Made by a program: the position numbers and the translations under genes. Shown here piece by piece: positions 27,559 through 47,986 of a stretch of DNA of 48,719 nucleotides; positions within the stretch are counted from its first letter, which is position 1, and each line of letters begins with the position of its first letter. The notes under the pieces were generated by a model. The model was not told the origin of the DNA, ran no database searches, and was given only the letters and a program-made list of their open reading frames with translations. This DNA comes from Thermosinus carboxydivorans Nor1 (GTDB lineage Bacteria > Bacillota > Negativicutes > Sporomusales > Thermosinaceae): NCBI RefSeq assembly GCF_000169155.1, contig NZ_AAWL01000018.1, positions 1 to 48,719 of the forward strand. The letters are read 5' to 3'.

Positions 27559-27572
27559 GCCATCCTCTCCTT

Positions 27573-28325
27573 CTAGGTGCGAAACTTGACAATGCCGCTA
27601 AAGCTCACGGCGTCCAAGCTGGCGCCGCCTACCAGGGCGCCGTCGATGTCGCTCTGGGCCATCAGCTCGGCAATATTTTCCGGTTTGACACTGCCGCCGT
27701 ACTGAATGCGGACGCGGTCGGCCGCATCACCGAACATTTCCCGCACAATGGCCCGGATAAAAGCGCACACGGCGTTAGCATCCCGGGGTGAGGCCGTGCG
27801 GCCAGTACCGATGGCCCACACCGGCTCATAGGCAATAACCATGGCGGCTACCTGGTCGGCCGTCAGGCCGGCTAACCCTCCCCGGACCTGCTCGCCCACC
27901 ACCGCTGCGGTGGCACCGGCTTCCCGCTCGGCCAGGGTCTCGCCTACGCACATAATGGGAATAAGATCATGGGCCAGGGCGGCTTTGACCTTTTTGTTAA
28001 CCGTTTCATTGGTCTCTGCAAAATACTGGCGGCGCTCCGAATGGCCGATGATGCAATAATCGCAGCCCACATCGCGCAGCATGGCCGGCGATATTTCGCC
28101 CGTAAAGGCGCCCTGCTGCTCCCAGTGCACGTTCTGGGCGGCCAGCCGGACATGGGTGCCGCCCACGACGGTCCGCACCGAGTATAAAGCAGTAAAGGGC
28201 GGGCAGACAACAACCTCAACCTCGCCGGCATCGGCCGTAAGCCGGACAATGTCTTGCACCAGCGCCTGCGCTTCGGCAACCGTTTTATGCATTTTCCAGT
28301 TACCGGCAATAATGGGTTTACGCAC
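27573..28325 (-). CDS. tpiA: Triose-phosphate isomerase
   Basis: Interconverts dihydroxyacetone phosphate and glyceraldehyde 3-phosphate. In the 250-residue barrel the substrate Lys is in AGNWKMHK, the electrophile His in [12 protein letters not shown], and the catalytic Glu in [18 protein letters not shown]. The phosphate loop is [10 protein letters not shown]. It lies 11 bp after pgk and 14 bp before gpmI. Confidence 0.97.
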
Positions 28326-28336
28326 TTTTCCCCCTC

Positions 28337-29521
28337 CTATTTGTCCGCCAGGGCGGCAATGCCCGGAAGCACCTTGCCTTCGAGAAATTCAAGCGACGCG
28401 CCGCCGCCAGTGGAAATATGGGTAATACGCGCGGCCAAGCCTACCTTTTCCAGGGCGGCAATGGAATCGCCGCCGCCGACAATGCTGGTGGCGCCGGAGC
28501 CGGCAACCGCTTTGGCCACCGCCTCGGTCCCTTTGGCAAAAGCGTCGAATTCGAAGACGCCCATGGGCCCGTTCCACACAACCGTTTTGGCTCCTTGCAC
28601 CGCCTCGCCAAACGCCTTGGCCGTTTCCGGCCCGATGTCCAGCACCATCCACTCGGGGTCGATTTCGGCCACGCCGGCAACGCGCCAGGCGGCATCGGCG
28701 GCAAAGCGGTCAGCAATAACTACGTCGGTAGGCAGCAGCAATTTTAAGCCCTTGGCTTTGGCTTGGTCAATCAGCGTGGCGGCCAGTTCGACTTTATCCT
28801 CCTCCACCAGTGACTTGCCGGTGGCAAAGCCTTGGGCCCGCAGGAAAGTGTTGGCCATACCGCCGCCGATAATCAGGGTATCAACTTTGCCAAGTAGATT
28901 TTCAATAACACCGATTTTATCCGATACCTTCGCCCCACCGATTATGGCGACAAAGGGCCGGGTCGGATTGGTAACCGCCTGCCCGAGAAACGCGATTTCT
29001 TTTTCCATGAGAAAACCGGCTACCATCGGCACAAATTTAGTAATCCCTTCCACCGAGGCATGAGCGCGGTGCGACACCCCGAAGGCGTCGTTAACGGCCA
29101 CGTCGGCCAGACGGGCCAGGCTTTGGGCAAAGCGCTCATCATTTTTTTCTTCTTCTTTATGAAAACGCAGGTTTTCGAGCAGCAGCACCTGGCCGGGCTT
29201 AAGCTGGGCGGCTTTGGCCTCGGCCTCGGCGCCCACGCAGTCGGCGGCAAACAACACTTCCTGACCAAGGAGCTCACTGAGCCGCTTAGCTACCGGCGCC
29301 AGCGAATACTCAGGCGCCGGCGCGCCTTTGGGCCGGCCCAGATGGCTGGCGAGAATGACCGCCGCCCCCTGGTCGAGCAGGTAGCGGATAGTGGGCAATG
29401 TGGCCCGGATGCGGGTGTCGTCGGTAATGTGGCCGCTTTTGTCCATCGGCACATTATAGTCTACCCGGACAAAGACTTTTTTGCCGGTTACGGCGATATC
29501 CTTTACCGTCTTTTTATTCAT
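28337..29521 (-). CDS. pgk: Phosphoglycerate kinase
   Basis: Transfers phosphate from 1,3-bisphosphoglycerate to ADP. The N-terminal substrate motif is [12 protein letters not shown], followed by [11 protein letters not shown], the nucleotide-side segment [14 protein letters not shown], and the C-terminal [15 protein letters not shown] chose ATG 29521, which lies 8 nt after GGAGG; an in-frame ATG at 29536 lies within the leader. The corrected 394 residues are typical. A terminator-like hairpin sits between it and gap. Confidence 0.97.
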
Positions 29522-29534
29522 CTCCCATACCTCC

Positions 29535-29560
29535 AAAAAGGGGCACGCGCTGTGCCCCTT
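29535..29560 (-). other. Hairpin with short T-tract between gap and pgk
   Basis: A 9-bp stem AAGGGGCAC / GTGCCCCTT (29538-29546, 29552-29560) is followed on the minus strand by TTTTT and then directly by the pgk ribosome-binding site. It could attenuate transcription so that gap is made in excess over the downstream genes, or protect the gap mRNA end. Confidence 0.65.
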
Positions 29561-29564
29561 GGCA

Positions 29565-30584
<1,020 letters not shown>

Positions 30585-30597
30585 CTAAAAGAATAAT

Positions 30598-30629
30598 TTT
30601 TTTATTATTAAGATTTTTTATTATTAAGA
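30598..30629. repeat. 16-bp perfect tandem duplication at the cggR stop codon
   Basis: TTTTTTATTATTAAGA occurs twice without a gap (30598-30613, 30614-30629). The second copy contains the cggR stop codon (30624-30626). On the coding strand it produces a row of TAA triplets just before the gap leader. Confidence 0.9.
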
Positions 30630-31649
30630 GTTTATAATACCCTGGATGGCGCGGGCGGCGGCCTCGTCGGTAATCAGAATGTCCTGCCCGCCGGCCCCGG
30701 TGACAGCGACAATAGCGGCTGCCTTAGAGCTTCCGCCCGCTACGGCAATAACCCGGCCAATACCGGTTAAATCAGCCAGGCGCAACCCTACGCTGTTAGT
30801 AACATACACGACATCGCCCGTAATGGTGCAGTACTGGCCCAAGGCTTCGCCTACCGCGCCGCGGGCCGTAATTTCCCTGATCGTCTCTGCCGGCAAGCCG
30901 CGGCGGGCAGCCATTTGAGCCGCCTGTCCGATGCCATGAACCAAAATATGGGCGCGTTTAATCATGTCGGCTACTGCCCGTACGTTGCCGTCACTGGCAA
31001 GAATGGCCTCCAGCGCTTCCTCGCTTAAACCGTCAGGAATGTGCAGCAGGCGGTACCGCCCCCCCAGCTTGCCCGCAATCCGGGCAGCGATAGTATTGGC
31101 CTGGTATTCCACCTGTTCGCCCAACCCACCGCGGGCCGGCACCACCGTGGTGCCCGGCGCGCTAAACTGGACGGCGTCGGCGAGAGTAGCCATGGTAGAG
31201 CCGCCACTTACCGCAATGGTCATATTATCTCCCAGATATTGGCTTAATACTCCCGCGGCCGCTCGGCCGAGCTCGCGCTGCACCGCCGCGTCCGCCTGGC
31301 TATCGCCAGGAATGATAACTACCCGCTCAAGACGCAGTTTGACGGCAAGCTCTTCTTCCAGGTCAGTAAGCCCGCGCACCAGGCGGATATAAGCCGCCAG
31401 TTCGCTCAGCAGGGCGCCGCCTTCGTCGGTTACCGTCATGCCCAGCGGCGAAAAGTCGACCAAGCCGGCATTTTTTAAAAAATCTACCTGGGCACGAACA
31501 ATGCGCTCACCCACGCCCAGCATGGCGGCCAGCGCGCGCCAGCCTACCGGCTGGGCATACTGAATATGCCGGAGTATATTATAACGATCTTCCATAACAC
31601 TTATAAGTTCGGGAGCAATTTTTCGGTGCAGCCGGGCGATGTCTTTCAC
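30624..31649 (-). CDS. cggR: Central glycolytic genes regulator CggR (SorC family)
   Basis: Represses the gap operon and, in the well-studied Bacillus homologue, is inactivated by fructose 1,6-bisphosphate. The N-terminal winged helix (about residues 20-75: RYNILRHIQYAQPVGWRALA, then ERIVRAQVDFLKNAGLVD) is followed by a SorC/DeoR-type sugar-binding domain with AVSGGSTMATLADAV and ARGGLGEQVEYQ. I chose the GTG at 31649 behind GGAGGGGAG; the frame is open a further 63 bases. At 341 residues it matches the usual size. A two-repeat operator lies directly upstream, implying autoregulation. Confidence 0.95.
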   Translation of the reverse strand: MKDIARLHRKIAPELISVMEDRYNILRHIQYAQPVGWRALAAMLGVGERIVRAQVDFLKNAGLVDFSPLGMTVTDEGGALLSELAAYIRLVRGLTDLEEELAVKLRLERVVIIPGDSQADAAVQRELGRAAAGVLSQYLGDNMTIAVSGGSTMATLADAVQFSAPGTTVVPARGGLGEQVEYQANTIAARIAGKLGGRYRLLHIPDGLSEEALEAILASDGNVRAVADMIKRAHILVHGIGQAAQMAARRGLPAETIREITARGAVGEALGQYCTITGDVVYVTNSVGLRLADLTGIGRVIAVAGGSSKAAAIVAVTGAGGQDILITDEAAARAIQGIINS

Positions 31650-31665
31650 AAAGTTCTCCCCTCCG

Positions 31666-31702
31666 GGTCTATATATGTCCCACCGGTACCTGTTATGTCC
31701 CA
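31666..31702 (-). promoter_or_regulatory. CggR-like operator
   Basis: On the minus strand TGGGACATAACA is followed exactly 20 bp later by TGGGACATATAT and then AGAC. The Bacillus subtilis CggR operator has two GGGAC-N6-TGTC units at the same 20-bp period, so spacing and half-sites agree. It overlaps the cggR leader, consistent with repression of the whole operon. Confidence 0.8.
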
Positions 31703-31720
31703 TTCCGGCCAAAAAAATTC

Positions 31721-31766: not shown

Positions 31767-31817
31767 AATTTCCTGCTAAGTTTTAAAAAACTTTAAACAC
31801 TTAACCCCGCCCCCAAC

Positions 31818-31936
31818 CTCACACCTCACACCTCACACCTCATACCTCACACCTCATACCTCATACCTCACACCTCACACCTCATACCTCATACCTCATA
31901 CCTCATTCCTCATACCTCATTCCTCATTCCTCATTC
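31818..31936. repeat. 7-bp tandem repeat, seventeen units
   Basis: Seventeen directly adjacent heptamers of CTCACAC, CTCATAC and CTCATTC. The last unit overlaps the stop codon of the MgtC-like gene (31931-31933), so the tract grows straight out of that gene's end. Variants are clustered: CTCATTC units are all near the gene, CTCACAC units towards cggR. A seven-unit tract of the same family lies at 11069-11117. Confidence 0.95.
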
Positions 31937-32927: not shown

Positions 32928-34442
32928 TTACTCCTCTTCTTGCCAGAAAAGCAACCGGGGCTTAGGGTCCAAGATAGATAAATATTGTTCTCTCACCCCA
33001 TAATGCGCTTGGGGATCAAGCTTTTGATAGCGATAGTATTTTTCCAGCCGGTCGGCCGGCCGGACCCACCCCCAGTGCTGCAAGCGCACCTGGCAAGTTG
33101 CTCCCCGCAGGCTGGCGATACTAATCGGAAAACGTCCGCAATGCTGGGCTGTTTCTTGCCAAACGTAATTATAACCGGGCTTGTAACGAACTAAAAACGG
33201 CCGGTAATATTTGTGCGCTTGCCAATATTCATCCTCGCGGTACTGTTTTTCGGTCCACATATCGTAAAGGCGGAAGTAATATGCGTCAAAATGAGGGCTG
33301 CGCAACAGATGAGGCATGACGTCAACAATTTTGTCCTCAAACACCTCGTCAGCATCCAAAATTAGTATCCAATCAGGTTTAGTTTCCACCGCCAGATCCC
33401 ACAGCTGCTTACGCAACGCCACTTCATTATGAAATCCCGGCTCGTCATTGACAACTATTTTATGCGGCAGGCTAGCAAGGCAACGGCGGCACACAGCAAT
33501 GGTATGGTCTGTGCTGGCATCGTCCAGGATGACAGCTTCATGCACATAACGGGTCGCATGGGTGAGTACTTTCTCCAAGTAACGGTCTGCCTCGTTGCGC
33601 ACCAACATTGCCAGCATCAGGCGGGGTGAAGGCCTTTGCTGAGCATAGTCATATAGTTCTTTATGCTGGCTAAGGCCAGACAATTCAGACTCCCGGTACA
33701 TATGGTAAGGCGGGTAACAGGTATCGGCATAAAGTTCGAACCCCAGTGCAGCTGCCCGCACGCAAAAATGGCGGTCTTCACCAATCAAGTCAAGATTATA
33801 AATTTTTCGAAAAGAAACACCCGCTCGCAAAGCCGCGGCGCTAATCAGCGTACACGCTCCAAGTCCTCCTACCTTGTATATTCCTGGACATTGTAGCATG
33901 CGCAAAAAATTATTTTGCCGTTGGGCAGTTTCTTCAGGACTTAACTCTTCCCCTGTCTGCAGAGCATGCAGCCGGTACTGCCCCCCCAGCCACACCTGCG
34001 GCAAAGGAATTAAGTCCTTTTCCCACCTGGTCCAATAGACCTCGGCAACAATATCTTTGCCCAAACTCACAAGGTGGGTAATGGTCTTAGGATGGAGCGC
34101 CAAATCGGAATCGACCAGGAAGAGATAATCAAACTCTCTGTCACGCGCCATTTGAATAAATATATCTTTATAGCGGGCCACTTTCCAAATGATGTCGTCC
34201 TGCCAAAAATGAGTTTGTTCGTTGCACTGGTAATAATGGGAATTTTCCATACCGCGCAAAATGGTAGTCTGGGGCTTAGCCGCGGCAAAGGCTTGCAGCT
34301 GATCACTTAAGACGTCATTGTCGTCAATGAACGCGTACTCTACTGCAAGCCCTGCTGTTTCCAGCTGCGCCAGGCAAGTAAGAAACTCAGCCAAGATGTT
34401 TGGTTTCTGCCTAACTGGGCTGGCGATTAACACCCGTTTCAC
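32928..34442 (-). CDS. Two-domain glycosyltransferase
   Basis: A 504-residue protein with two GT-A-like modules. The N-terminal half (LIASPVRQKPNILAEFL; LFLVDSDLALHP as metal site) resembles Anp1/GT-family proteins that act on surface or glycan acceptors. The C-terminal half is a GT2 domain (MLAMLVRNEADRYLEKVL; the DxD site is in WILILDADEVFED). The start is the GTG at 34442, which overlaps the preceding gene by 32 bp. It is the last of four glycosyltransferase genes read as one operon. Donor and acceptor are unknown. There is no signal peptide or membrane helix, so it acts in the cytoplasm. Confidence 0.85.
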   Translation of the reverse strand: MKRVLIASPVRQKPNILAEFLTCLAQLETAGLAVEYAFIDDNDVLSDQLQAFAAAKPQTTILRGMENSHYYQCNEQTHFWQDDIIWKVARYKDIFIQMARDREFDYLFLVDSDLALHPKTITHLVSLGKDIVAEVYWTRWEKDLIPLPQVWLGGQYRLHALQTGEELSPEETAQRQNNFLRMLQCPGIYKVGGLGACTLISAAALRAGVSFRKIYNLDLIGEDRHFCVRAAALGFELYADTCYPPYHMYRESELSGLSQHKELYDYAQQRPSPRLMLAMLVRNEADRYLEKVLTHATRYVHEAVILDDASTDHTIAVCRRCLASLPHKIVVNDEPGFHNEVALRKQLWDLAVETKPDWILILDADEVFEDKIVDVMPHLLRSPHFDAYYFRLYDMWTEKQYREDEYWQAHKYYRPFLVRYKPGYNYVWQETAQHCGRFPISIASLRGATCQVRLQHWGWVRPADRLEKYYRYQKLDPQAHYGVREQYLSILDPKPRLLFWQEEE

Positions 34443-35949
34443 CTAATAACACCCCCTGCCAGAACGATAATGGTAGATCATGGGGCGCAGTCGCTTGCAC
34501 AAGGACTGCGATCAGCCTGAGCTGTTCCCGCACGGCTAAGTCTGTCGCTTGTTTAATCCTCGCGATATTACCGCCGCCCATTTGCATAAGCGTACATTGC
34601 AGCAGCAATATTTCCGCCCCGTTAGTTAAAATGCCATAGACGTGTGCGGGCAGCGGTCCTGCCGTTGGCGCTGCAACAAGCAATTGGCGATATATATTGC
34701 AATAAGCTGTCATCGCCGCAATGTCATTGGCCTTGCCCCGCTCGCGAGCAGCGTACAGGCTGGCGGCAAGAGCCAATTCAAACCGACCGGCCTCATATGT
34801 CAACCTGAACAAATTTGCCGTTTTTTCTGATGAAAGCACGTTCACTAAAGCTTTCTCGCCTATCTCAGGGTTGTGCAACCACACTCTGAGCAGCCGCTGC
34901 CAACAATGCAACACGATTTTGCCCGAACTACTATTAATAGCTTCTATATAACACTCGACCGCCTGATCATATTTCCCAGCCAGCGAATACGCATCACCCA
35001 ACAAGGCGGTGAGTCGACCACGCTCTGCCAAGTATCCTTTATTTGCCACCTCCTCTAAAGCTGCGACGGCGTCCTGATAGTTATGTCGCTGCATAAGCCA
35101 CAAGCCATACAGGCAACGTATATCGGCGTTTTCTGGTAGCGCCAGTACAGCCTTGCGAAACCATGTTTCCGCACCAGGGTCGTCAGGCAGTGCCAACTTA
35201 ACCAGTAAAATCGCCGTAATTAGTTGCGGAATATAGCCTTCATCCCCTTTTAACAAAACAACGGCTTTTTGCAGCCACTCATCTGCCTGTTGATAGTCTT
35301 TATTATGAAGGTACTCAATTCCAAGACTGTAATGCAGAAACGGGTCTTGCACATTTTTTCTAAGCGCTTTGCGAATAATGGCGGTGTTACGGTTAAACTT
35401 CCGCTTATGTTCAATTTCCTGCCGGCAATACCCATAGTGGCGAATGGTAAAAGGGACGAAAGCAAGCCCGCCGCCTTCATTGCAGCTGAGAATAGTTCCG
35501 GCAATCTGCTCGTGAATCGTTCCCACGAATCTGTACTCAGGTAAATTTTTAAATAAACGGACAACATAATCATCAACCATGCTGCCGCTTTCATCTAAAT
35601 AGCTGCAAATCCGGAAATAATACCCTTCCGCCGGGGTTTGCCGCATAAAGGCGAGTAATTCCTGCCTAGTTACCGAGCTCAGTTCTTCATCGGCATCCAA
35701 TACTAGCAGCCAATCTCCCTGCGCTTTGCTGATGGCATAGTTGCGAGCCGCCGCAAAATCATCTTCCCACTCGTAAAAAAACACCCGTGCCCCATGCTCT
35801 CGCGCAACATTCACTGTATTATCGGTTGACCCTGTATCGACAACGACTATCTCATCCGCAATATTTGCAACGCTCTTTAGACACCGCGCGAGACAATGCT
35901 CTTCATTTTTGACGATGATACATAGCGAAAGAAAAACGGCTGTGTTCAT
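34411..35949 (-). CDS. GT2 glycosyltransferase with TPR-like tail
   Basis: A 512-residue protein. Residues 1-210 are a GT2 catalytic domain (SLCIIVKNEEHCLARCLKSV; DEIVVVDTGSTDNT; metal site Asp85-Ala-Asp87 in LVLDADEEL). The rest is built of helical repeats with TPR-like spacing (LGIEYLHNKDYQQADEWLQK is the clearest). This layout is shared with protein O/S-glycosyltransferases of the SunS type, though SunS identity is not claimed. It overlaps the previous gene by 4 bp (ATGA) and the next by 32 bp. Confidence 0.87.
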   Translation of the reverse strand: MNTAVFLSLCIIVKNEEHCLARCLKSVANIADEIVVVDTGSTDNTVNVAREHGARVFFYEWEDDFAAARNYAISKAQGDWLLVLDADEELSSVTRQELLAFMRQTPAEGYYFRICSYLDESGSMVDDYVVRLFKNLPEYRFVGTIHEQIAGTILSCNEGGGLAFVPFTIRHYGYCRQEIEHKRKFNRNTAIIRKALRKNVQDPFLHYSLGIEYLHNKDYQQADEWLQKAVVLLKGDEGYIPQLITAILLVKLALPDDPGAETWFRKAVLALPENADIRCLYGLWLMQRHNYQDAVAALEEVANKGYLAERGRLTALLGDAYSLAGKYDQAVECYIEAINSSSGKIVLHCWQRLLRVWLHNPEIGEKALVNVLSSEKTANLFRLTYEAGRFELALAASLYAARERGKANDIAAMTAYCNIYRQLLVAAPTAGPLPAHVYGILTNGAEILLLQCTLMQMGGGNIARIKQATDLAVREQLRLIAVLVQATAPHDLPLSFWQGVLLGETGVNRQPS

Positions 35950-37664
35950 CGGTATAACCCCCGCATCCTCGCAGTGTGTTTCAGTTCCTGCTCCGCTTGT
36001 TCAAGCTCAGCCAGCAGTTCAGTAGTTGCTACGGGTTCGCTGGCTAGGACTGCATGGACCGCCTTGATGACTTCGGCAAAGCGTTGCTGCTTGCGCACAT
36101 CACAAGGTTGGGCGACCAAACAGCGGCGCCTAAGGTCAAGTAGCGCTGCCACTGCCTTACGATTGACTAAAGGCTGCGAGACAGCGCAGCACATTTTTTT
36201 ATAAAGGCAAAATGCCGCCCAAAAGATATCCCGGTATTCCCGCTCGCGCCAAAGCTCCCACAGTTTTTCGCGTGCTTCAGCGCAGCGCTCCAGCATGAGC
36301 AAAGCGACAATTTCATCTCCTAAAACTTCGCCACTAAGCCTTTTGCCTTGGCGCCGCATCTGCCGCAAGCACTGTAAAGCGCTATAGATATCGCCCCCAT
36401 AAATCTGGCATTTAGCTAGCAATTCCCAGCCCGTGTCATGCTCAGGATTTGAGTGAGTCAAACAACGCAAGGCAATAGCCGGCATGCCCAGCGTCCAAAA
36501 CAATTCGGCCATTTTTTCCGCTACTTCAGGGACTTTAAGATAGTTACGCTCAGCCAGGAAATCCACCACGTCTTGCACACTATGCCGGGTCAATTTTAAC
36601 AAAACAAGCTGATACAGGGGGTAATAATAGTTTTGAGTATTGTTTAAGGCTGCTACATAGTATTGCATGGCCTCATTATACAAGCCGAGTTTTTCCGCGC
36701 AATAGCCCAAATGATAATGGGCCAAGTAGCCATTCGTTCCGTCAGTATGAAAATAAGCCAGCGCCGGCGGCCCTAATTTCACCGCTTCTTGGAACCACTT
36801 GCGGGCAACTTCGTATTCGCCTTTCAATTCGAACAGCACGCCGCCGTCGAAAAAAAGATCACAGTAATCGGGATAGCGTTCACTTTCTTCCAGGCATAGA
36901 CAAATTGCTTTGTCAATTTCTCCCAAATGTTTGTAGCACTGCATAAGGTAGCGAACAGCCGCGCTACGAAAAGTTACTTGCTGCAGTGAAAAATTACTCA
37001 ACGCTTGACGCAAAGCTACGGCAGCCAGCTCGATTCGCCCCAAGCCAAGCCACTCCGCGCCTAAATAATACTGCCAAAAGGGGTCGTCAGGCTCTTTAGC
37101 AAGCGCTTTTTTCAAGAGCGCAATATTTCTGCCCCTCCGCCTGCGCCGCTCCGCTGGCGCAACGGCATCGTGATATATCGCCGGACTCAAGGCAACGCCG
37201 ATTGTCGCTGGATCACTGACGTGCACATATTCATGAACAAACCCTTTGTAACGGTGCTCCCGCCGAAACAAGCGCAGTACCATAATCCTTTCCTGTTCCC
37301 GGCCGTCATTTGCTACTTTCAGGGCATATAAAGGCAAACAATAGGCGCTATAGCGGGGCTGATTAATCAAGGCATGAAGCTCACCCGGCTTGGCGTCCAG
37401 GCGCTCATCAGCGTCCAGCGAAAGTATCCATTCATGCGTCGTTTGATCGATAGCAAAGTTACGCGCCGCAGCAAAATCATTCTGCCAAGGCAAACAGTAA
37501 ACCTTATCTGTAAAAGTTCTGGCAATTTGTACGGTATCGTCGCACGAACCTGTGTCAACGACGACAATCTCGTCCACTACGTCCTTAACACTTGCCAAGC
37601 ATTTGGCAATACGGCTGCCCTCATTACGCACGATCATTGCTAAGGAAACGCGTTGAAATATCAT
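35946..37664 (-). CDS. GT2 glycosyltransferase with long TPR-like tail
   Basis: A 572-residue protein. The GT2 domain covers about residues 1-230, with SLAMIVRNEGSRIAKCL, DEIVVVDTGSCDDT and the DxD site at Asp84/Asp86 (LSLDADERL). The remainder is a helical-repeat tail (GGVLFELKGEYEVARKWFQE; HYHLGYCAEKLGLYNEAMQY). I chose ATG 37664, which overlaps the upstream stop codon by 4 bp and has GGAGG ahead of it; the frame is open 162 bases further but inside the neighbouring gene. It ends in a charged coiled-coil-like stretch. It is the second gene of the operon. Confidence 0.87.
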   Translation of the reverse strand: MIFQRVSLAMIVRNEGSRIAKCLASVKDVVDEIVVVDTGSCDDTVQIARTFTDKVYCLPWQNDFAAARNFAIDQTTHEWILSLDADERLDAKPGELHALINQPRYSAYCLPLYALKVANDGREQERIMVLRLFRREHRYKGFVHEYVHVSDPATIGVALSPAIYHDAVAPAERRRRRGRNIALLKKALAKEPDDPFWQYYLGAEWLGLGRIELAAVALRQALSNFSLQQVTFRSAAVRYLMQCYKHLGEIDKAICLCLEESERYPDYCDLFFDGGVLFELKGEYEVARKWFQEAVKLGPPALAYFHTDGTNGYLAHYHLGYCAEKLGLYNEAMQYYVAALNNTQNYYYPLYQLVLLKLTRHSVQDVVDFLAERNYLKVPEVAEKMAELFWTLGMPAIALRCLTHSNPEHDTGWELLAKCQIYGGDIYSALQCLRQMRRQGKRLSGEVLGDEIVALLMLERCAEAREKLWELWREREYRDIFWAAFCLYKKMCCAVSQPLVNRKAVAALLDLRRRCLVAQPCDVRKQQRFAEVIKAVHAVLASEPVATTELLAELEQAEQELKHTARMRGLYR

Positions 37665-39631
37665 TCTTGCGGCGCCTCCTCTAAGAGCTGCTTGAAGATT
37701 GGCATTTGCGGAAATTGCTGCGCCGCATCCCCCAGCAACTTCCGACGCATCGCTTGATATAACTTTATTAGCTTTACATAGTATTGCGGGCGCCGGGTAT
37801 CGATGGTTATAGCCCGATGATAACACAGGCTTCCGCGTTCAAACTGGTTTGTCTGAACAAGAATTTCCGCTAAATGGAACCAGGCCTCCGCACTATCGTC
37901 ATGTTCCTGTAAATATAACTCCGCATATTCAAGCGCGATGTCCCAATATTCATATTTGCTAAAAACATGGGACAGCTCCAAGGCATATTCTTTTTGCACC
38001 GTTTTATCTAGCCGCGCTAACAATCCTTGGGCGAGTGCTAATTCTCGCCTGTCCAGCGCACGCAAAACAATATCTTTGACTAGATCTATTCCTTCTTTCC
38101 CCAAAACTTGCAGCGGAACAGAACGCCGCGTATATAACGAATCCTTGAGCATGGCAACCACTTTACTTGCATCGGCTGACAAGCCAGCTGCCAAGAATTC
38201 ATCGCATAAGCTGCGTACTTTTTTACGGTTTTTCAACAACCAAAATCCCACGATTTTATTAAATTGCGCCAACGGAAATTGCGGATGGCCTGGCGGCATT
38301 TTGTCCAAAATGCGTATTGCTTCCATCAATCTTTGCTGTTGTATCAAACAAATGGCTTTCAAGACTTCGGTATAAGCTTCAATACTTGAACTATCAATTT
38401 TTTCAAAATAATTTAGGGCTAGCTCATACGCCCCTTCTGCAAAGCAAATCATCCCAATCAGGCGGTACGCGTCGGCAGTGCAAAATTCGCAGATTTTCTC
38501 GATTGCCCGCATGGCATATTCCGGGTATTTGCGAGGATTTAAAATACGCACAATGGCCTTAAGCGACAGGGCAAACTCCGCATTATCCCTCAGGCTGAGA
38601 ATATAATAGCGCAGGGCTTCTTCCTCGTCGCCAAACATTTCTGCCAAAGCGCCCAATTGGTAATAGGCGCGAAAGCCGCGGCAGCCGGCAAAAGACGCAT
38701 AATAGGCCGGCTGTTCTGGTGTAGCAATGGCTCGCTGGAACCATTCCCAAGCACCGGCATATGCTTGCTGCTCGAGCTGGATTATTCCCCCGTAGTAATA
38801 TAAGTCAGCATAATCGGGAAATAACTGCAGCCCTTTTGTTATAGCCGCCAATGCCAGTTCGTACTCGCGCGCTCCATAGTAAGCCAAGGCGATATACCTA
38901 AGCAGTTTGGGGTAGTAAACAACGCCGCTATCAACAGCCGCCGCTACTTTTGCCAATTCATCCGCCGCTTCCAGGTAACGCTCGGCCCGGTATAACTCTA
39001 CCCCGTAATGGTAGCGTAGCGTTTTATTATCGGGGTCATTAGCACATTCTCTGGTAATAATGCTTAAATTTCTGTTTATTTTGTCCTTAGCGATAATATG
39101 TTGCTGTAAGTAGCCATAGTGCCTAATAACAATCCCTTCGGCAACCTTAAATATTGCTTGCTTGTTCTTTTCGAGAATAACGTCAACAATCTGCTCATGA
39201 ATCGCTCCCCGAAAGCGGTATTCGGGCTTATTGCGAAACATCCTGAATACCAGGTCAGGTACAGTTTCGATGTTGTCGGCCGCGCCGATAAAATTTACGA
39301 CTTTCATAAAATATCCTTCGCATTCGTCAGTGATCACACGCCGCAGTACATCAGCACTGCCCGGCGCAAGCTCCTCGTCGGCATCAAGAAACAAAATCCA
39401 GTCGCCTGTAGCCAGTTCCAAGGAAGCGTTACGAGCAGCGCTAAAATCGTCTTGCCACTTGCGCGAAATTACTTTGGCGCCTGCCAACTCTGCGACTGCT
39501 CTTGTCCGGTCTGTCGAGCCCGTATCAACTACGACAATTTCGTCGACCGCCCCGCGCACACTATTTAAACACCGTGCCAAGTTTGCTTCTTCGTCTTTTA
39601 CAATCATGCACAAACTGATGGTTCTTACCAT
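37661..39631 (-). CDS. GT2 glycosyltransferase with extended TPR-like tail
   Basis: The first gene of the glycosyltransferase operon, 656 residues. The GT2 domain has SLCMIVKDEEANLARCLNSV, DEIVVVDTGSTDRT and the DxD site Asp83-Ala-Asp85. Residues about 230-656 are helical repeats (YYYGGIIQLEQQAYAGAWEW; AYYQLGALAEMFGDEEEALR; AWFHLAEILVQTNQFERGSL). AAAAGGAGT precedes the ATG. Such tails often recognise protein or oligosaccharide acceptors. It diverges from the repeat-protein gene at 39800 across 168 bp, which is the main reason to suspect that the repeat protein is an acceptor. Confidence 0.88.
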   Translation of the reverse strand: MVRTISLCMIVKDEEANLARCLNSVRGAVDEIVVVDTGSTDRTRAVAELAGAKVISRKWQDDFSAARNASLELATGDWILFLDADEELAPGSADVLRRVITDECEGYFMKVVNFIGAADNIETVPDLVFRMFRNKPEYRFRGAIHEQIVDVILEKNKQAIFKVAEGIVIRHYGYLQQHIIAKDKINRNLSIITRECANDPDNKTLRYHYGVELYRAERYLEAADELAKVAAAVDSGVVYYPKLLRYIALAYYGAREYELALAAITKGLQLFPDYADLYYYGGIIQLEQQAYAGAWEWFQRAIATPEQPAYYASFAGCRGFRAYYQLGALAEMFGDEEEALRYYILSLRDNAEFALSLKAIVRILNPRKYPEYAMRAIEKICEFCTADAYRLIGMICFAEGAYELALNYFEKIDSSSIEAYTEVLKAICLIQQQRLMEAIRILDKMPPGHPQFPLAQFNKIVGFWLLKNRKKVRSLCDEFLAAGLSADASKVVAMLKDSLYTRRSVPLQVLGKEGIDLVKDIVLRALDRRELALAQGLLARLDKTVQKEYALELSHVFSKYEYWDIALEYAELYLQEHDDSAEAWFHLAEILVQTNQFERGSLCYHRAITIDTRRPQYYVKLIKLYQAMRRKLLGDAAQQFPQMPIFKQLLEEAPQE

Positions 39632-39719
39632 AAATATTACTCCTTTTGCCTTTTGTATCAGTATATGCTACAGGCATTTGCGCGGTCCAACAAGATAACC
39701 ATAATCGGCTCAGCCGTGT

Positions 39720-39748
39720 CACCTCTTTGTTTTTAGTAACATAAAATA
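39720..39748 (+). promoter_or_regulatory. Candidate sigma-K (late mother-cell) promoter
   Basis: CACC at 39720-39723, a 16-bp spacer, then CATAAAATA at 39740-39748. The sigma-K consensus (mACm, 16 bp, CATAnnnTA) is met at every specified position. It lies 51 bp upstream of the repeat-protein start, with no comparable sigma-A promoter in the same spacer. A short AT-rich motif can arise by chance, so this is a strong hint rather than proof. Confidence 0.6.
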
Positions 39749-39799
39749 CACTAACAGCATTGTTTTGCTGAAATGATTACGCAAAGGAGTGTTTACAAA

Positions 39800-40486
39800 A
39801 TGCCAAACTTCAAGATCATCCAAGATATAGCCGACCAGGCGCGCGTAAAGGTATACGGTTCGCAAAACCTACCTTTGAAAACCGACGTTGAAGGCAGTTT
39901 AGCAATTACCGGCCCTGCAAGCGGCCTTTTGGTCACCGCTCCGGCGCAAGGCCTACTGGTCACTGCTCCGGCCGAAGGGCTGAACGTCACCGGGCCGGTA
40001 GGCGGCCTGCTCGTTACTGCGCCGTCCAAAGGCTTAATGGTAACCGCTCCGGCTGAAGGCCTTAGCATTACCGGCCCTGCAGGCGGCCTTTTGGTCACCG
40101 CTCCAGCCAATGGCTTGTTGGTTACAAGTACCGGCCTTTCGGTTGTTCCTACCGTAGCGACTACGGATGTGAGCGTGGAGATAACTGGTCTAACCGATAC
40201 AGCCGGCTGGCCTACCGACACGTACAATGTTATCGGTCTGAGACAGTTTTCGTTTGGCATAGTCAACCGTGCTACTTCGGCCGAAAACGCGCAAGCTACG
40301 GTTAAACTACAAATCAGTCCTGACGGTTCCACATGGGTTGACAACAGCAGCGTGGTTACTTTGAACCAGAACTCCGCAACTGCGCTAGTTGCGTCTATCT
40401 TCCTCAAATATGCTCGCGTATATTATGCAGCGGTCAACGCGGCCAGTACCGTAGACCTCTCCATCTTCCTGCAAGGGCAAGCTTAA
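39800..40486 (+). CDS. Repeat-containing DUF6385-like structural protein
   Basis: A 228-residue protein of unknown function. Residues 1-32 are a short polar head. Residues 33-112 are nine units of nine residues with the pattern GLLVTAPAx. Every third unit (1, 4 and 7) reads TGP rather than TAP, giving a 27-residue super-period likely to form a beta-solenoid. Residues about 120-228 form a beta-rich domain with LQISPDGSTWVDNSSVV and KYARVYYAAVNAAS, which I match from memory to DUF6385. There is no signal peptide, as for spore-coat proteins. I chose ATG 39800 behind AAAGGAG. The repeats offer many Thr residues, and one NVT. Confidence 0.75.
   Translation: MPNFKIIQDIADQARVKVYGSQNLPLKTDVEGSLAITGPASGLLVTAPAQGLLVTAPAEGLNVTGPVGGLLVTAPSKGLMVTAPAEGLSITGPAGGLLVTAPANGLLVTSTGLSVVPTVATTDVSVEITGLTDTAGWPTDTYNVIGLRQFSFGIVNRATSAENAQATVKLQISPDGSTWVDNSSVVTLNQNSATALVASIFLKYARVYYAAVNAASTVDLSIFLQGQA
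39896..40135 (+). repeat. 27-bp coding repeat with 81-bp super-period
   Basis: The DNA encoding residues 33-112 of the repeat protein. The block around 39898 and the block around 40060, two super-periods apart, are nearly identical over about 45 bp, including CGGCCTTTTGGTCACCGCTC in both. This points to duplication by 81-bp units rather than single 27-bp units. Confidence 0.85.
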
Positions 40487-40505
40487 TGCCGTGCCAGTTA
40501 TAAAT

Positions 40506-40549
40506 AAAGAAGTTTGTCTCTGGCGCTATCGTTAGAGGCAAACTTCTTT
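40506..40549 (+). terminator. Hairpin after the repeat-protein gene
   Basis: A 16-bp stem with G-T wobble (AAAGAAGTTTGTCTCT at 40506-40521, AGAGGCAAACTTCTTT at 40534-40549) lies 20 bp beyond the stop. The 3' arm ends in T-rich sequence but no long T-tract follows directly, so read-through to the next gene is possible. Confidence 0.7.
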
Positions 40550-40579
40550 ACATAACGGTCTTGGTATTCCAACCTGTCG

Positions 40580-40596
40580 TTTTTTTTTTTTTGACG
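40580..40596 (+). other. Run of 13 T followed by TTGACG-like hexamer
   Basis: Thirteen consecutive T at 40580-40592, whose last two bases begin TTGACG. This could be an upstream element and -35 box for the gene at 40636, but no good -10 was found. The run is also prone to length variation. Confidence 0.3.
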
Positions 40597-40635
40597 CACA
40601 ATGCAGCAAAAATTGTTGTTTAAAGGAGGTAAACC

Positions 40636-41481
40636 ATGGGTGAGAAAACATTTAAAAACCCCATAAAAAATGCCACTGCGGTTAATGGCAGAGTCCTACG
40701 CCATGAACCATTTAAAGGCGTTACGCTACTTGGTCATGCAATACGCGAGTACAATACGCTTGTCCAGTTTGACATCGCATCTCTACCGCCGTTAATAACC
40801 ATCGTGCGCAGTTTGTTCAACGTTTATTTGCTCAGGAAAAAATGCGCAAATGCGAACATAAAAAAAACTATTTCAGTTTATCAAATAATATCTCCATGGC
40901 GACGAGGCAGTCCGGTGCTGACAAACAACTCGCCGATCGATAGCGTTACCGTTTATGATACTGACAATGTTTTGTTGAGTTTTAACGTAACGCCTCTTGT
41001 TGTCGACTGGTATATGGGCAAAACTGCTAACTGTGGCTTGCTGTTAAAACTGGAAAATGATGTTTCTTCCTGCCTTTTAAGTTTAAATAGTAAAAAGACG
41101 CACAACCCGCAACTTCGGCCAAACTTGCAAATATCATTTTTAGATCCTTTGCCACCTGAAAACTTCAGCCATTTGCTAGATTTCGACGCTAACGTCATAA
41201 CCAGCGATACGATCCAAACGACAGTCGCACTAAGTATTCAACGCTTCAATTACTCTTGTTTTATCATTAACACCGGCGCCAGCAGCGCAACTGTGTCTTT
41301 GCAAATTAGCCCTGACGGCGTCTACTGGCTTACCGACGGAGCTGATCGCAACGTCCTCCCTGGCGAAATAATTACCATTGTGCCATCTTTTATCACCAGG
41401 TTTGCCCGCCTTGCATACCATTCGGCCACTCCGGGAAAAAGTACTAGCTTAGCCATACGTGTAAGAGGTTGCGCTAATTAG
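40636..41481 (+). CDS. DNRLRE-like plus DUF6385-like structural protein
   Basis: A 281-residue protein. Residues about 15-165 have the pattern of DNRLRE/jelly-roll surface domains: LVQFDIASLPPLITIVRSLF, a long strand-rich middle, a VTPLVVDWYMGKTANCGLLL segment and an LNSKKTHNPQLRPNLQISF end. Residues about 180-281 repeat the beta domain of the preceding protein (LQISPDGVYWLTDGADRNVL; TRFARLAYHSATPGKSTSLA). There is no signal peptide. AAAGGAGG precedes the ATG. Together the two genes suggest a structural pair sharing one C-terminal module. Domain names are from memory and should be confirmed by profile search. Confidence 0.7.
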   Translation: MGEKTFKNPIKNATAVNGRVLRHEPFKGVTLLGHAIREYNTLVQFDIASLPPLITIVRSLFNVYLLRKKCANANIKKTISVYQIISPWRRGSPVLTNNSPIDSVTVYDTDNVLLSFNVTPLVVDWYMGKTANCGLLLKLENDVSSCLLSLNSKKTHNPQLRPNLQISFLDPLPPENFSHLLDFDANVITSDTIQTTVALSIQRFNYSCFIINTGASSATVSLQISPDGVYWLTDGADRNVLPGEIITIVPSFITRFARLAYHSATPGKSTSLAIRVRGCAN

Positions 41482-41510: not shown

Positions 41511-41555
41511 CAAACCGCAACCATCGTTGAAAAACGACGGTTGCGGTTTGCTTTT
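41511..41555. terminator. Bidirectional terminator between the structural gene and lipA
   Basis: An 18-bp stem with one A-C mismatch (41511-41528 with 41533-41550) closes a GAAA tetraloop and is flanked by A/T-rich sequence. It serves the converging genes on both sides. Confidence 0.9.
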
Positions 41556-42438
41556 AAACATGTATTTCCCGGTAGAACTCACCGGCATGATAGGAGCTGC
41601 GCACAAGCGGCCCGGCCGCCACGCTTTTGAAGCCCATCTGCCGGCCGACTTCGGCCCATTTGGCAAACTCCGCGGGCGGGACATAGCGCTGCACGGGATA
41701 ATGCCGCCCGGTCGGCGCCAAGTATTGACCCAGGGTAATCATCGTGACACCGGCCGCCCGCACATCCTCGAGAACGGCCATCACTTCGGCCTCTTCCTCA
41801 CCCAACCCAAGCATGATCCCGGTTTTGATTTCGGTGCCCGGCTTAGCCGTCCTGGCTGCCTGCGCCAAAAGGTTTACCGACCGACGGTACTCCGCCCCCG
41901 GCCGCACGGCTAAATACAGGCGCGGCACCGTCTCCACGTTATGGGCAAAGACCTCGGGACCGGCGGCCAGCACGGTCGCCAGCGCCGCCGGCGCGCCGCG
42001 AAAATCGGGCGTAAGTACTTCTACCCGCGGCCGCCCCGGCAACTTGCGCAATTCGTTAATGACAGCGGCAAACTGCCCGGCTCCACCGTCGGGCAAATCG
42101 TCGCGGGTAACCGAAGTCACCACCACATGGGTAAGGCCCATTTCGGCCACGGCGGCAGCCAACCGGCGCGGTTCTTCGGGATCGACGGCCGGCGGACGGC
42201 CATGGTCTACGGCGCAAAAGGCGCAACTACGGGTGCAGGTATTGCCGAGAATAAGAAAGGTCGCTGTACCGTGGGAATAACAGCTCCCCTTATTGGGGCA
42301 GCGCGCCCCGTCGCATACGGTATGTAAGCGGTATCCGGCCAGCCGGCCAGCGGTCAGGGCATGGAGCGCCGGATTATCGGCCCGTTTGGCATCGCGCACC
42401 ATGGCGCGCAGCCAGGCAGGCACGGTCGTGCGTGTCAT
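41554..42438 (-). CDS. lipA: Lipoyl synthase
   Basis: A radical-SAM enzyme that inserts two sulphur atoms into octanoyl groups on lipoyl domains. The auxiliary cluster cysteines are Cys42, Cys47 and Cys53 (CX4CX5C), and the radical-SAM cysteines are Cys68, Cys72 and Cys75 (CX3CX2C). The C-terminal RSSYHAGE carries the conserved RSSY serine that ligates the auxiliary cluster. The 294-residue length is normal. The gene stands alone here, without lipB or lplA nearby, so the source of octanoyl groups lies elsewhere. Confidence 0.96.
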   Translation of the reverse strand: MTRTTVPAWLRAMVRDAKRADNPALHALTAGRLAGYRLHTVCDGARCPNKGSCYSHGTATFLILGNTCTRSCAFCAVDHGRPPAVDPEEPRRLAAAVAEMGLTHVVVTSVTRDDLPDGGAGQFAAVINELRKLPGRPRVEVLTPDFRGAPAALATVLAAGPEVFAHNVETVPRLYLAVRPGAEYRRSVNLLAQAARTAKPGTEIKTGIMLGLGEEEAEVMAVLEDVRAAGVTMITLGQYLAPTGRHYPVQRYVPPAEFAKWAEVGRQMGFKSVAAGPLVRSSYHAGEFYREIHV

Positions 42439-42509
42439 CTGTTACCAACGCCTTTCCGGTCAGTATTGTCTCCCTCCATTATACCGCACCCGCCCCGAAA
42501 TTAACAGCG

Positions 42510-43250
42510 CTAAACACCGGCCGGCACGACGGCGCAGGCCGGCGCCACCCGCACCGGCTCGCCGCTCTCTTTCTCACTGCCATTACGGCCGCAGATTTCC
42601 TGCCGCCGCTGCATGAAGCGCAAAGCCTCATCCCGTGAGGCAAACAAAGGAATGAGCGCATCGCCGCTAAACCAGGCACCCCACCGGCCGTCTGGCAGAC
42701 GGGTAATGTTGCCGGTATCGATCTCGATCATCCCCCGCCAGGGCAGCGGTCCGGGCAGGGACTCCGTTGCGGCGTTAAGCTGCCACAGACTGCCACCAAA
42801 CAGTGCCAGTAGCTCGCTATAGGTCAGCGTCGGCGTCCGGCCGGATAAAACTTCCAGATAACTCTGCAGGCATGCCAGGTGGCCGGAAGCGTACAGCAAA
42901 ATTGGGACGTTAGCGGCCGCCGTCTCAATAGCTTTAAGAACCTGGTCAAAAACTGCCAACGGATCGTCGTCCAGGCGGAACGGGACATTGGTCTCTTTGT
43001 ACCAGCGCGACGCAGAGCCAGGCTCATAAGTAAAGCCGGCCGGCTCCAGGATGGAACGAAACACGTCGCTATTGTCGTAAATGGCCGTCACTACCGCCAG
43101 CCGGTCTTCAAAGTCATATAGGGCAATATGGTCTGGCCACGAACGGCGATGAGTTTTCAGCTTAGGAAAACGGGAATAGTAAATCTTGCCCCCGGCAAAC
43201 CGTTCAAGCATTTCCGGCAGAGTGTACCGCAGCAAACGCATGCAGTTCAC
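42510..43250 (-). CDS. Hypothetical protein
   Basis: I do not recognise this 246-residue protein. It is soluble by appearance, with no signal peptide or clear membrane segment. It has a Trp-, Leu- and Arg-rich make-up and a middle segment IETAAANVPILLYASGHLAC that could be a nucleotide- or cofactor-binding strand-turn. A conserved-looking stretch is GNITRLPDGRWGAWFSGDAL. The GTG start at 43250 has GGAGG 7 nt upstream, which together with the long frame supports a real gene. It shares orientation with lipA across a 71-bp gap, so the two may be cotranscribed. Confidence 0.7.
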   Translation of the reverse strand: MNCMRLLRYTLPEMLERFAGGKIYYSRFPKLKTHRRSWPDHIALYDFEDRLAVVTAIYDNSDVFRSILEPAGFTYEPGSASRWYKETNVPFRLDDDPLAVFDQVLKAIETAAANVPILLYASGHLACLQSYLEVLSGRTPTLTYSELLALFGGSLWQLNAATESLPGPLPWRGMIEIDTGNITRLPDGRWGAWFSGDALIPLFASRDEALRFMQRRQEICGRNGSEKESGEPVRVAPACAVVPAGV

Positions 43251-43470
43251 AGTCTCACCTCCTCAGCATAGTCAGGCAAAAAACCGCTCTGGCACGGTTT
43301 TGGTTGCAAATCAGGCTAACCCGCTCCCGGCGGAAGGGAGGGGGTGCAAGGCAAATATTATTTTATATTATATCAAATTTTCTTTTGATGTTGTTAATTT
43401 TTTCTTAAGTTATCATCTTTTTTGTCTAATTCCTCGCCCAGCACAAAAATATTCGCGCGCCTTTTTAACA

Positions 43471-43640
43471 AAACCGCGAAGAAAATCATGCCAATAAATT
43501 GGCACCACAAGCGATGAAAATAGTTATTCAACCGCGGAGAACGCAGAGAGCGCGATATGCATCGCGCTAAAGTTAAAAAATATCCCCTCCGTGTCCTCTG
43601 TAGTTCCATTATATAAATTCAAGCGCGACAACTGTCGCGC
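43471..43640. repeat. Dispersed nested-palindrome element, copy D
   Basis: A complete copy. In order: a left module with CCAATAAATTGG, an AACCGCGGAGAACGCAGAGAG arm, the hairpin GCGCGAT-ATGC-ATCGCGC, a CCCTCCGTGTCCTCTGTAGTT arm complementary to the first arm, and a terminal palindrome GCGCGACA-AC-TGTCGCGC. It is nearly identical to copy E (47733-47903). Nothing else is seen in the 43251-43672 spacer. Confidence 0.85.
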
Positions 43641-43672
43641 GTGTGAAGTTGCCGGTTTTCAGTATAGAACGC

Positions 43673-43702
43673 TAAAAAAAAAGCTGCCCTTTCTTGGGCA
43701 GC
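43673..43702 (-). terminator. Terminator of the molybdoenzyme operon
   Basis: The stem GCTGCCC / GGGCAGC (43683-43689, 43696-43702) has a 6-nt loop and is followed on the minus strand by nine T. It lies 16 bp beyond the nrfD-like stop codon. Confidence 0.92.
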
Positions 43703-43717
43703 AGCTGAAGAGCAGTG

Positions 43718-44683
43718 CTACGAGCCGGTGAAGATTTGCCCCGCATAAAGGAAATAAAAACGCAGCAGCACAACGCCCACCAAGGCAATAGACGAGTTAA
43801 ACAGAACGGTGCGCAGCCGGTATACATGGCCATGCAGGGCGGTTACGGCAATGGCGACAGGCAGGATCAGGCCAATGCCGACCACGCCAATCCAGAACAC
43901 CTTAGCCCATACGCCAACGGTCAGGGCTTCCTTGGCAATGAGGTAATACTGGCCGCCCTGAAAGTACATGCCGGTAAACAACAAAAACAGCATGAAGAGT
44001 TCAAAGGGAATTACCCTGAGGTCAAGCGCCAACAAGTATTTGAGGTTTTGTTCGTCGACCGTGCTGCGAAAGCAGGTCAGACCGACGAGAATATTGGCGG
44101 CGATGCCGGCGGATATGCCGGAGACTAAGAAAAGCAGCGGCAAAATGGGCGTGTTGAAGAGCGGTTTGGCTACCAGCGCCGACAAGAGAAAACCGGTATA
44201 GGTCGCGACCCCGACGGCCAAGACGCACATAATCCCTTCGAGGGAGCGAGTCTGCTCAAGCCGCTCCACCAGCGGCAGGAGCGGTTTAAACCAGGGCGCC
44301 GACCACCCCTGTTCGCTGAGGGGCTTTTTAAAGATGATGGCGCTAAAGAGCAGCGCGAGCGGCGTGTAGATGCTCAGCAAAATAACGCCGATAGACATGA
44401 CGGAAGTGATTTGGTAGTGCAGCATCAGCAGGTAGAACGACAAGGGCTTGCCCAAATCGACAATGAGCAGGGCCAGACCGATAATAATGGTCGGCGGTGC
44501 GATCAGCGCTCCCGCTTTAATCAGCCCGTCCCACGGCGGTGTTTCGTTGCCCTCAATCCACTTGACCAGTAAGGCGGTAATAAGCGCCCCGCCGCTCAGG
44601 CCGGCCAGAAACAGATAGATCGCAATCGGCCAGCCCCAGGCTATTTCGGTGTATTGCGTAATATCGCCCCAGATGATATCCAT
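43718..44683 (-). CDS. NrfD/PsrC-type membrane quinone-interacting subunit
   Basis: The integral membrane subunit that links the quinone pool to the molybdoenzyme. The 321 residues form about eight or nine hydrophobic helices, beginning with the family N-terminus WGWPIAIYLFLAGLSGGALI. No heme-binding His pattern is evident, as expected for NrfD proteins. Its start codon overlaps the ferredoxin stop by 1 bp (TAATG-like junction), so the genes are coupled. It is the last gene of the three-gene operon. Confidence 0.92.
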   Translation of the reverse strand: MDIIWGDITQYTEIAWGWPIAIYLFLAGLSGGALITALLVKWIEGNETPPWDGLIKAGALIAPPTIIIGLALLIVDLGKPLSFYLLMLHYQITSVMSIGVILLSIYTPLALLFSAIIFKKPLSEQGWSAPWFKPLLPLVERLEQTRSLEGIMCVLAVGVATYTGFLLSALVAKPLFNTPILPLLFLVSGISAGIAANILVGLTCFRSTVDEQNLKYLLALDLRVIPFELFMLFLLFTGMYFQGGQYYLIAKEALTVGVWAKVFWIGVVGIGLILPVAIAVTALHGHVYRLRTVLFNSSIALVGVVLLRFYFLYAGQIFTGS

Positions 44684-45258
44684 TATACCTCACCTCCGCG
44701 CCAGTTCGGGATGGTAGTGACTTTCGGCTTGGTTCCCAAGTGCTGTTTGGGTTTGACGATGTAGTTTTTGCTTAGCACCGCCCGTACCTCGCTCTGCGGG
44801 TCATTGAGATCACCAAAGGTGAGCGCCCCAGTCGGACAAGCAGCGACACAGGCCGGTTTTTGCCCTTTGGCCGTGCGGTTGGTATAGCAGAAGGTGCACT
44901 TATCGGCCGCCCCGGTCTTAGGATTGATGAACCGGGCCTGATAGGGACAGGCAGTAACGCAATACTTGCAGCCGACACATTTTTTCTCGTCGATCAGATT
45001 GACGCCGTCCTTATTCGTATACGACGCGCCGGTCGGACAAACGCTGACGCACGGCGAATTATCGCACATCACACATGACTGACGGTGAAAATCCATGACC
45101 AGGTTAGGAAACCGACCCTTCGGCCCTTCGATCCAGACCTGTAGCCTTGCTACGCCGTCGGGAACTTTGTTTTCGGCCCGGCAGGCTATGCTGCAGGACT
45201 GGCAGCCTATGCATTTGTTGCTGTCATAGACCATGCCGTAGCGTTTTTGTTCAGCCAT
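44683..45258 (-). CDS. Four-cluster ferredoxin-like electron-transfer subunit
   Basis: A 191-residue iron-sulphur protein of the DmsB/PsrB/PhsB type that carries electrons between the membrane subunit and the molybdenum subunit. It has four cysteine sets: CIGCQSCSIACRAENK, CVMCDNSPCVSVCPTGA, CVGCKYCVTACPYQA, and CTFCYTNRTAKGQKPACVAA plus CPTGAL. That gives four [4Fe-4S] clusters. It has no signal peptide and would be exported with the Tat-targeted partner. It lies 18 bp downstream of the catalytic gene. Confidence 0.94.
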   Translation of the reverse strand: MAEQKRYGMVYDSNKCIGCQSCSIACRAENKVPDGVARLQVWIEGPKGRFPNLVMDFHRQSCVMCDNSPCVSVCPTGASYTNKDGVNLIDEKKCVGCKYCVTACPYQARFINPKTGAADKCTFCYTNRTAKGQKPACVAACPTGALTFGDLNDPQSEVRAVLSKNYIVKPKQHLGTKPKVTTIPNWRGGEV

Positions 45259-45276
45259 CCTCCACCCCTCCTTGTA

Positions 45277-47574: not shown

Positions 47575-47605
47575 ACCCAACCCCCCTTGTATGGATGTAG
47601 TAAAC

Positions 47606-47637
47606 AATTATTGTATTGATTTATTAATACAATAATT
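47606..47637. promoter_or_regulatory. 12-bp perfect inverted repeat upstream of the molybdoenzyme operon
   Basis: AATTATTGTATT (47606-47617) and AATACAATAATT (47626-47637) enclose an 8-bp core. The centre lies about 47 bp upstream of the start codon. The AT-rich symmetry and position suggest an operator for a redox or oxyanion-sensing regulator of unknown family. Confidence 0.6.
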
Positions 47638-47903: not shown

Positions 47904-47986
47904 ACGTAGCCCTTTGCGTCCTACTCCGAAAACTCACTTCAAAAATTTATGTCAACTACTTCGAATAGAGACAAAGAGATCCCAAG

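Follow-up and report, generated by a model that had tools for sequence, protein, structure and literature searches.

Most of what is known about spore surfaces comes from Bacillus cereus relatives and C. difficile. In C. difficile, SgtA adds beta-O-linked N-acetylglucosamine (GlcNAc) to threonines of the BclA3 repeats, and sgtA lies upstream of bclA3 (PMC7157674). In GmaR, a glycosyltransferase (GT) domain of about 180 residues is followed by tetratricopeptide repeats (TPRs), and the enzyme places GlcNAc on flagellin (PMC9638930). Here, we describe a locus of Thermosinus carboxydivorans Nor1 (Negativicutes; contig NZ_AAWL01000018.1; the whole stretch analysed, 48,719 nucleotides, is called the window) in which four genes of family 2 glycosyltransferases (GT2s) diverge from two genes, D1 and D2, sharing the domain of unknown function DUF6385. 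We consider it probable that this locus encodes a glycoprotein module of the spore surface, produced by the mother cell at a late stage of sporulation, the GT2s and D1/D2 together probably building a sugar-coated filament or layer on spores. The lineages concerned are ones whose spore surfaces have hardly been studied. No mention of DUF6385 was found in the literature searched, and searches for papers about spores of these lineages, or about Thr-rich glycoproteins of spores together with TPR-bearing glycosyltransferases, yielded nothing about this system.

Gene order and conservation of the cassette

The locus consists of six open reading frames (ORFs), the GT genes being named by order of transcription (GTD, GTC, GTB, GTA):

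32928-34442, minus strand: GTA, GT-A-like N-terminal part (DSD motif) in front of a C-terminal GT2 at residues 281-413
34411-35949, minus strand: GTB, GT2 and TPR, DXD (DAD) motif; PF00535 at E = 4e-27, TPR_2 at E = 2e-10
35946-37664, minus strand: GTC, GT2 and TPR; PF00535 at E = 8e-18
37661-39631, minus strand: GTD, heading the GT operon, GT2 at about residues 1-200, then a long TPR region
39800-40486, plus strand: D1, repeat at about 39899-40148, DUF6385 jelly roll at 40232-40480
40636-41481, plus strand: D2, DNRLRE/CBM96-like residues 1-172, DUF6385 at residues about 180-281

The original prediction, made from the sequence, had described four overlapping or abutting GT genes, three of them with TPR-like tails, and both ORF and Pfam analyses bear this out: GT2 is found in all four (E from 2e-12 to 4e-27) and TPRs in GTB, GTC and GTD. 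In GTA, Pfam detects PF00535 (E = 2e-12), a weak Anp1 match and no TPR; this gene is the conserved fourth member of the cassette in the neighbourhoods of relatives. The longest ORF of GTC begins at GTG 37826, but homology begins at ATG 37664, and the start was therefore set there, giving overlaps of 4 bp (GTD/GTC), 4 bp (GTC/GTB) and 32 bp (GTB/GTA). The predicted divergence from a gene with a Thr-rich 9-residue repeat is equally exact, with 168 bp separating the start of GTD from that of D1 (ATG 39800). Likewise, D2 is the second structural gene with the same C-terminal domain, since DUF6385 (PF19912) is found in both D1 (73.6 bits, E = 1.4e-20) and D2 (84.9 bits, E = 4e-24), above the gathering cut-off of 26.8. 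D2 also carries DNRLRE (NF033679; 47 bits, E = 2.8e-12, NCBIfam cut-off 34).

Conservation was followed in 60 relatives and in phylum-wide genomes, about 305 genomes together. DUF6385 is present in 51 distinct genomes, i.e., 19 of the 60 relatives and 33 genomes phylum-wide, T. carboxydivorans being in both sets and having DUF6385 only at the D1/D2 locus. A GTD profile strongly matched 18 of the 60 relatives. Both GTD and DUF6385 are present in 16 genomes, only GTD in 2, only DUF6385 in 3 and neither in 39 (Fisher p = 8.7e-10). Among the 16 genomes with both, GTD and D1 are adjacent in 12 and split in 4 by contig ends inside the repetitive D1; in these 4 cases, and likewise in genome G021, the D1 N-terminus adjoins GTD, and D1 stands beside GTD in 17 of the 18 GTD genomes. 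Relatives keep the order GTD-GTC-GTB-GTA beside D1, usually with D2 too, and carriers include Desulfotomaculum copahuensis, Desulfosporosinus lacus, Desulforamulus aquiferis, Thalassobacillus pellis and many Paenibacillus. The arrangement is found throughout an order and a class, and also in other classes, so it is not a chance co-location. A congener whose genome is 99% complete (G001) has neither GTD nor DUF6385, which argues for gain or loss of the whole cassette together. The comparison of DUF6385 neighbourhoods that had been proposed as a check is also favourable, such GTs adjoining DUF6385 genes in 16 of the 19 relatives that have them and in 18 of the 27 phylum-wide genomes with fetched loci. 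Since D1/D2 pairs also exist without GTs, the GTs are an add-on to the pair and not obligatory.

Regarding these GT-less pairs, five (L034, L135, L136, L137 and L139) have charged repeats of the DLDIRDLNNATDSVLVYGNDG type, and those of L136 and L137 adjoin yabG. Judging from their sequences, these pairs apparently represent a sister form of the spore module that is not glycosylated.

Restriction to spore formers and sigma-K-type promoters

All genomes with DUF6385 encode SpoIVA (19/19 relatives and 33/33 phylum-wide), and DUF6385 was found in none of the SpoIVA-negative genomes (0/18 relatives and 0/34 phylum-wide; p = 2e-4 and 0.011). T. carboxydivorans encodes SpoIVA, a sigma-K above the NCBIfam cut-off and LpxC, and is hence an outer-membraned spore former. 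The sigma-K -10 motif CATANNNTA occurs upstream of D1 in 22 of 37 distinct sequences (p = 6.5e-11) and upstream of GTD in 15 of 26 (p = 8.2e-8), compared with 67 of 569 controls, which were intergenic upstreams of other genes from the same loci; scrambled versions of the motif and the housekeeping TATAAT showed no enrichment upstream of D1 or GTD. In the consensus from B. subtilis, AC is the core of the sigma-K -35 element, and it stands exactly 19 nt before CATANNNTA in 13 of 19 D1 sites and 7 of 15 GTD sites. Two candidate promoters lie between GTD and D1 in the window:

39659-39686, minus strand: sigma-K-like promoter of the GT operon, AC-N17-CATATACTG, one mismatch to CATANNNTA
39721-39748, plus strand: sigma-K-like promoter of D1, (GTC)AC-N17-CATAAAATA

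Both divergent units thus look as if they were under late-sporulation, sigma-K control. Simple hydropathy revealed no signal peptide or membrane segment in any of the six proteins, and this fits a place on the spore surface, whose assembly proceeds from the cytoplasm of the mother cell. Moreover, yabG adjoins D2 in two genomes; in C. difficile, this spore protease gene and bclA1-3 are sigma-K controlled (PMC3789822). While its view of the GT neighbourhood was well founded, the original prediction had missed this link to sporulation, to which both SpoIVA and the sigma-K-type promoters point. The same observations bear on the idea of a vegetative, S-layer-like glycoprotein system on the cell surface. 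LpxC implies an outer membrane and hence a surface to decorate, but proteins devoid of signal peptides and transmembrane segments, a DUF6385 distribution restricted to SpoIVA-positive genomes and motifs of sigma-K type instead of TATAAT make such a system very unlikely.

The D1 repeat as candidate acceptor

D1 opens with a conserved segment, MPNFKIIQDxxDQARxKxYGSxN, followed by a repeat in which Thr occupies every ninth position (residues 37, 46, 55, 64, 73, 82, 91, 100 and 109), with a lag-9 Thr autocorrelation of 0.77 against a 95% limit of 0.46 for shuffled sequences. The repeat unit, GLxVTAPAx, does not follow the collagen-like GXY pattern, and Pfam found no collagen match in D1. Among lineages the repeat differs completely in sequence (GLLVTAPAE, GAVTFGAITG, ALPICTTSV, GATITAGTLTNLLN and others), and its chemistry follows the enzymes: uncharged Thr/Ser-rich repeats are found in 34 of 47 DUF6385 loci with GTs versus 0 of 13 without (p = 2e-6), and Thr is periodic in nearly all of the GT-associated D1s sampled versus 0 of 4 GT-less D1s tested. 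This covariation is the strongest indirect evidence suggesting that D1 is the acceptor.

The enzymes point in the same direction. With solved structures as targets, the GTD profile matched GmaR best (22ao, E = 3e-51), followed by SunS (E = 5e-35). GTB, GTC and GTD combine an N-terminal GT2, with the DXD motif intact, and TPRs behind it, and a DADE motif is invariant in the GTD alignment. The original prediction had cited SunS as an example of such enzymes, but SunS is not the best model: on the SunS family profile TIGR04195, GTB, GTC and GTD score 84-96 bits and GTA 17, far from the cut-off of 350, and GmaR is the nearer solved relative. SunS-type S-glycosylation of D1 is ruled out, as D1 has no Cys. 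A GT gene here adjoins a Thr-rich repeat protein as candidate acceptor, as in the SgtA-BclA type, and related GT2s adjoin collagen-like GXY proteins in Paenibacillus, Lysinibacillus and others. The earlier proposal that the enzymes modify a structural protein is hence strengthened as to the acceptor, uncharged Thr/Ser repeats being confined to loci with GTs, while glycosylation itself we infer from sequence.

The GTs might instead be sporulation enzymes that synthesise a different glycan of the spore surface or act on other coat proteins, leaving D1 and D2 as co-regulated, unsugared neighbours. Enzymes of the GT2-TPR type act on many acceptors, some pairs of the D1/D2 type occur in loci lacking GTs, and one relative (G014) has two GTDs and a DNRLRE protein with no DUF6385 match. 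We nevertheless find this unlikely, because the chemistry of the repeat goes with the presence of GTs, the flanking genes read revealed no flippase, polymerase or sugar-nucleotide gene, GTD and DUF6385 are jointly absent in the congener, and analogous GT2s adjoin collagen-like repeat proteins.

Structure predictions were AlphaFold2 monomer models only, built from shallow alignments (16 and 10 rows) of window and own-genome contig sequences. Residues 124-228 of D1 form a confident jelly roll (predicted local distance difference test, pLDDT, about 94), whose fold matches include prophage XepA, YomS, PirA, GOLD domains and four endospore appendage (ENA) pilus subunits (Z 8.3-9.7). In D2, the DUF6385 half separately matches Ena1B (Z 10.9), and the front half clearly matches CBM96-type modules (8wab, Z 18.5; 7vbo, Z 16.1). 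At the level of the model, the latter suggests a glycan-binding role for D2, the ligand possibly being the glycan of D1. By sequence, a PDB search gave no solved relatives of D1 and only a weak pro-TGF-beta match for D2, attributable to its CBM96-like fold.

These folds bear on two other readings. Regular Thr ladders are known in unmodified beta-solenoids, and D2 homologs are common in cassette loci, so that D2 might be the main acceptor and the D1 repeat a solenoid with a purely structural ladder. This appears improbable: the sequence of D2 lacks a Thr-rich tract and the model shows its domains as globular, D1 and not D2 is almost always the gene next to GTD, and only in D1 does the chemistry shift with GT presence. 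The likeness to XepA and YomS could also indicate a prophage tail-fibre or cargo locus. This is hardly credible given that D2 has no phage protein match, D1 and D2 have no useful PHROG match (one was trivial), the annotated parts of the flanks contain no phage genes, and conservation across an order looks vertical.

We therefore favour the spore-surface module, which would work as follows. Sigma-K would transcribe two divergent units, gtD-gtC-gtB-gtA and D1(-D2). D1 would be a non-collagen spore-surface stalk made of the N-terminal segment, probably for anchoring or assembly, a Thr-laddered beta-repeat of variable length and the DUF6385 jelly-roll head. Cytoplasmic GmaR/SgtA-like GT2-TPR enzymes would grip the repeat via their TPR arms and O-glycosylate its Thr ladder, and the remaining GTs, GTA in particular, would extend or diversify the glycan. 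D2, with the same head on a CBM96-like domain, would likely cap, anchor or cross-link the glycosylated stalk. In this proposal, the sigma-K dependence, the O-linkage, the identity of the sugar, the enzyme that starts and the order of the others, the role of D2 and the place of D1 and D2 on the spore are inferred.

Several points weigh against this interpretation. The genomes counted are related, and the p-values given above overstate independence. No such GT stands beside DUF6385 in 9 of the 27 phylum-wide DUF6385 genomes with fetched loci and in 3 relatives, and a few GT loci (L073, L133 and L134) have charged repeats. The repeat and N-terminus of D1 are weakly modelled (pLDDT about 50), so that the geometry of the Thr ladder is unsupported by the model. 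The GTD promoter of the window departs by one mismatch from CATANNNTA, and D2 has no clear promoter of its own.

Other features of D1 homologs and of the window deserve mention. Two giant homologs, of 850 and 1748 residues (L042:5323-7875 and L059:2695-7941), consist almost entirely of short repeats (GAVTFGAITG and GGTLDTIDSVLGATI). In L043, L050, L170 and L173, the D1 repeats are Cys- as well as Thr-rich (ALPICTTSVLPICTT), which could permit disulfide cross-linking or S-glycosylation in one lineage. A plasmid search with D1 returned one repeat-only 30% match, in a peroxidase-family protein, which was disregarded. One more element was read in the sequence between D1 and D2:

40506-40549, plus strand: inverted repeat AAAGAAGTTTG...CAAACTTCTTT, possible attenuator

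It has no T run directly behind it and a 13-T run further downstream, and may set the D1:D2 ratio. Both flanks are housekeeping in character, with a cggR-gapA-pgk-gpmI glycolysis cluster (26020-31712) on one side and, on the other (41554-48708), lipA, a set of NrfD, Fe-S and molybdopterin oxidoreductase genes and a transposase of the IS110 type. The same heptamer forms two arrays 20 kb apart, each between unrelated genes (31816-31934, ACCTCAT, 17 copies; 11066-11118, TACCTCA, 7.6 copies).

Likeness to described systems

The locus connects DUF6385 with late sporulation and with a set of likely protein O-glycosyltransferases, in lineages spanning outer-membraned spore formers, sulfate reducers and Paenibacillus. 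Its 9-residue repeat, which has a single Thr, offers an acceptor that can be tested directly, and the variants of the repeat found in nature form a series from which to learn how GT2-TPR enzymes read their substrate.

Regarding the structural proteins, ENA pili (Ena1B, Ena2A and Ena3A; PF13157) consist of a single jelly-roll subunit and lie at the spore surface; they resemble D1 and D2 in fold matches (Z 8-11) but differ in that D1 has no Cys for disulfide cross-links and ENA subunits have no repeat stalk. Pfam gave no PF13157 match in the T. carboxydivorans genome or for D1 and D2, and a profile comparison (hhalign), with a single sequence on one side and one Ena protein, returned a probability of 0.4%. 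As the jelly roll is a common fold, other jelly rolls scoring as high as the Ena subunits (Z 8.3-10.9), and as the profile comparison is unsupportive, ENA kinship is only a lead. It is possible, and we advance it tentatively, that the DUF6385 proteins serve as subunits of another class of endospore appendage or nap, one that has so far gone unrecognised. ENA-like jelly-roll heads would then sit on a glycosylated, Thr-laddered beta-solenoid stalk whose repeat is swapped between lineages, served by a dedicated four-enzyme glycosylation cassette and spread across Bacillota spore formers, including outer-membraned ones. The F-ENA (DUF4183) fibres, for which putative O-glycans on Ser/Thr were reported in F-ENA-4 (PMC11952670), also have an MP-type N-terminus and a beta head; their N-terminal motif is unlike that of D1, and no DUF4183 match at E 0.1 was found by Pfam in D1 or D2.

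Regarding the enzymes, the SunS family of peptide S-glycosyltransferases belongs to the same superfamily, with a GT2 and a helical tail, but the GTs score far under the family cut-off and D1 is Cys-free. GmaR, the Listeria flagellin O-GlcNAc transferase, likewise has TPRs behind an N-terminal GT2 of about 180 residues; it acts on flagellin and has an antirepressor domain, whereas GTD has only TPRs after its GT domain and is part of a GT operon. The closest parallel is SgtA-BclA3, in which a GT gene likewise adjoins a Thr-rich repeat protein, BclA3 being located at the spore surface and sigma-K dependent (PMC7157674, PMC3789822). BclA3 is collagen-like, whereas the present system has a non-collagen beta repeat with a DUF6385 head, and one GT there contrasts with four GTs and a CBM96/DUF6385 partner here. 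By analogy, our best reading is that the module works like SgtA/BclA3 with unrelated structural proteins.

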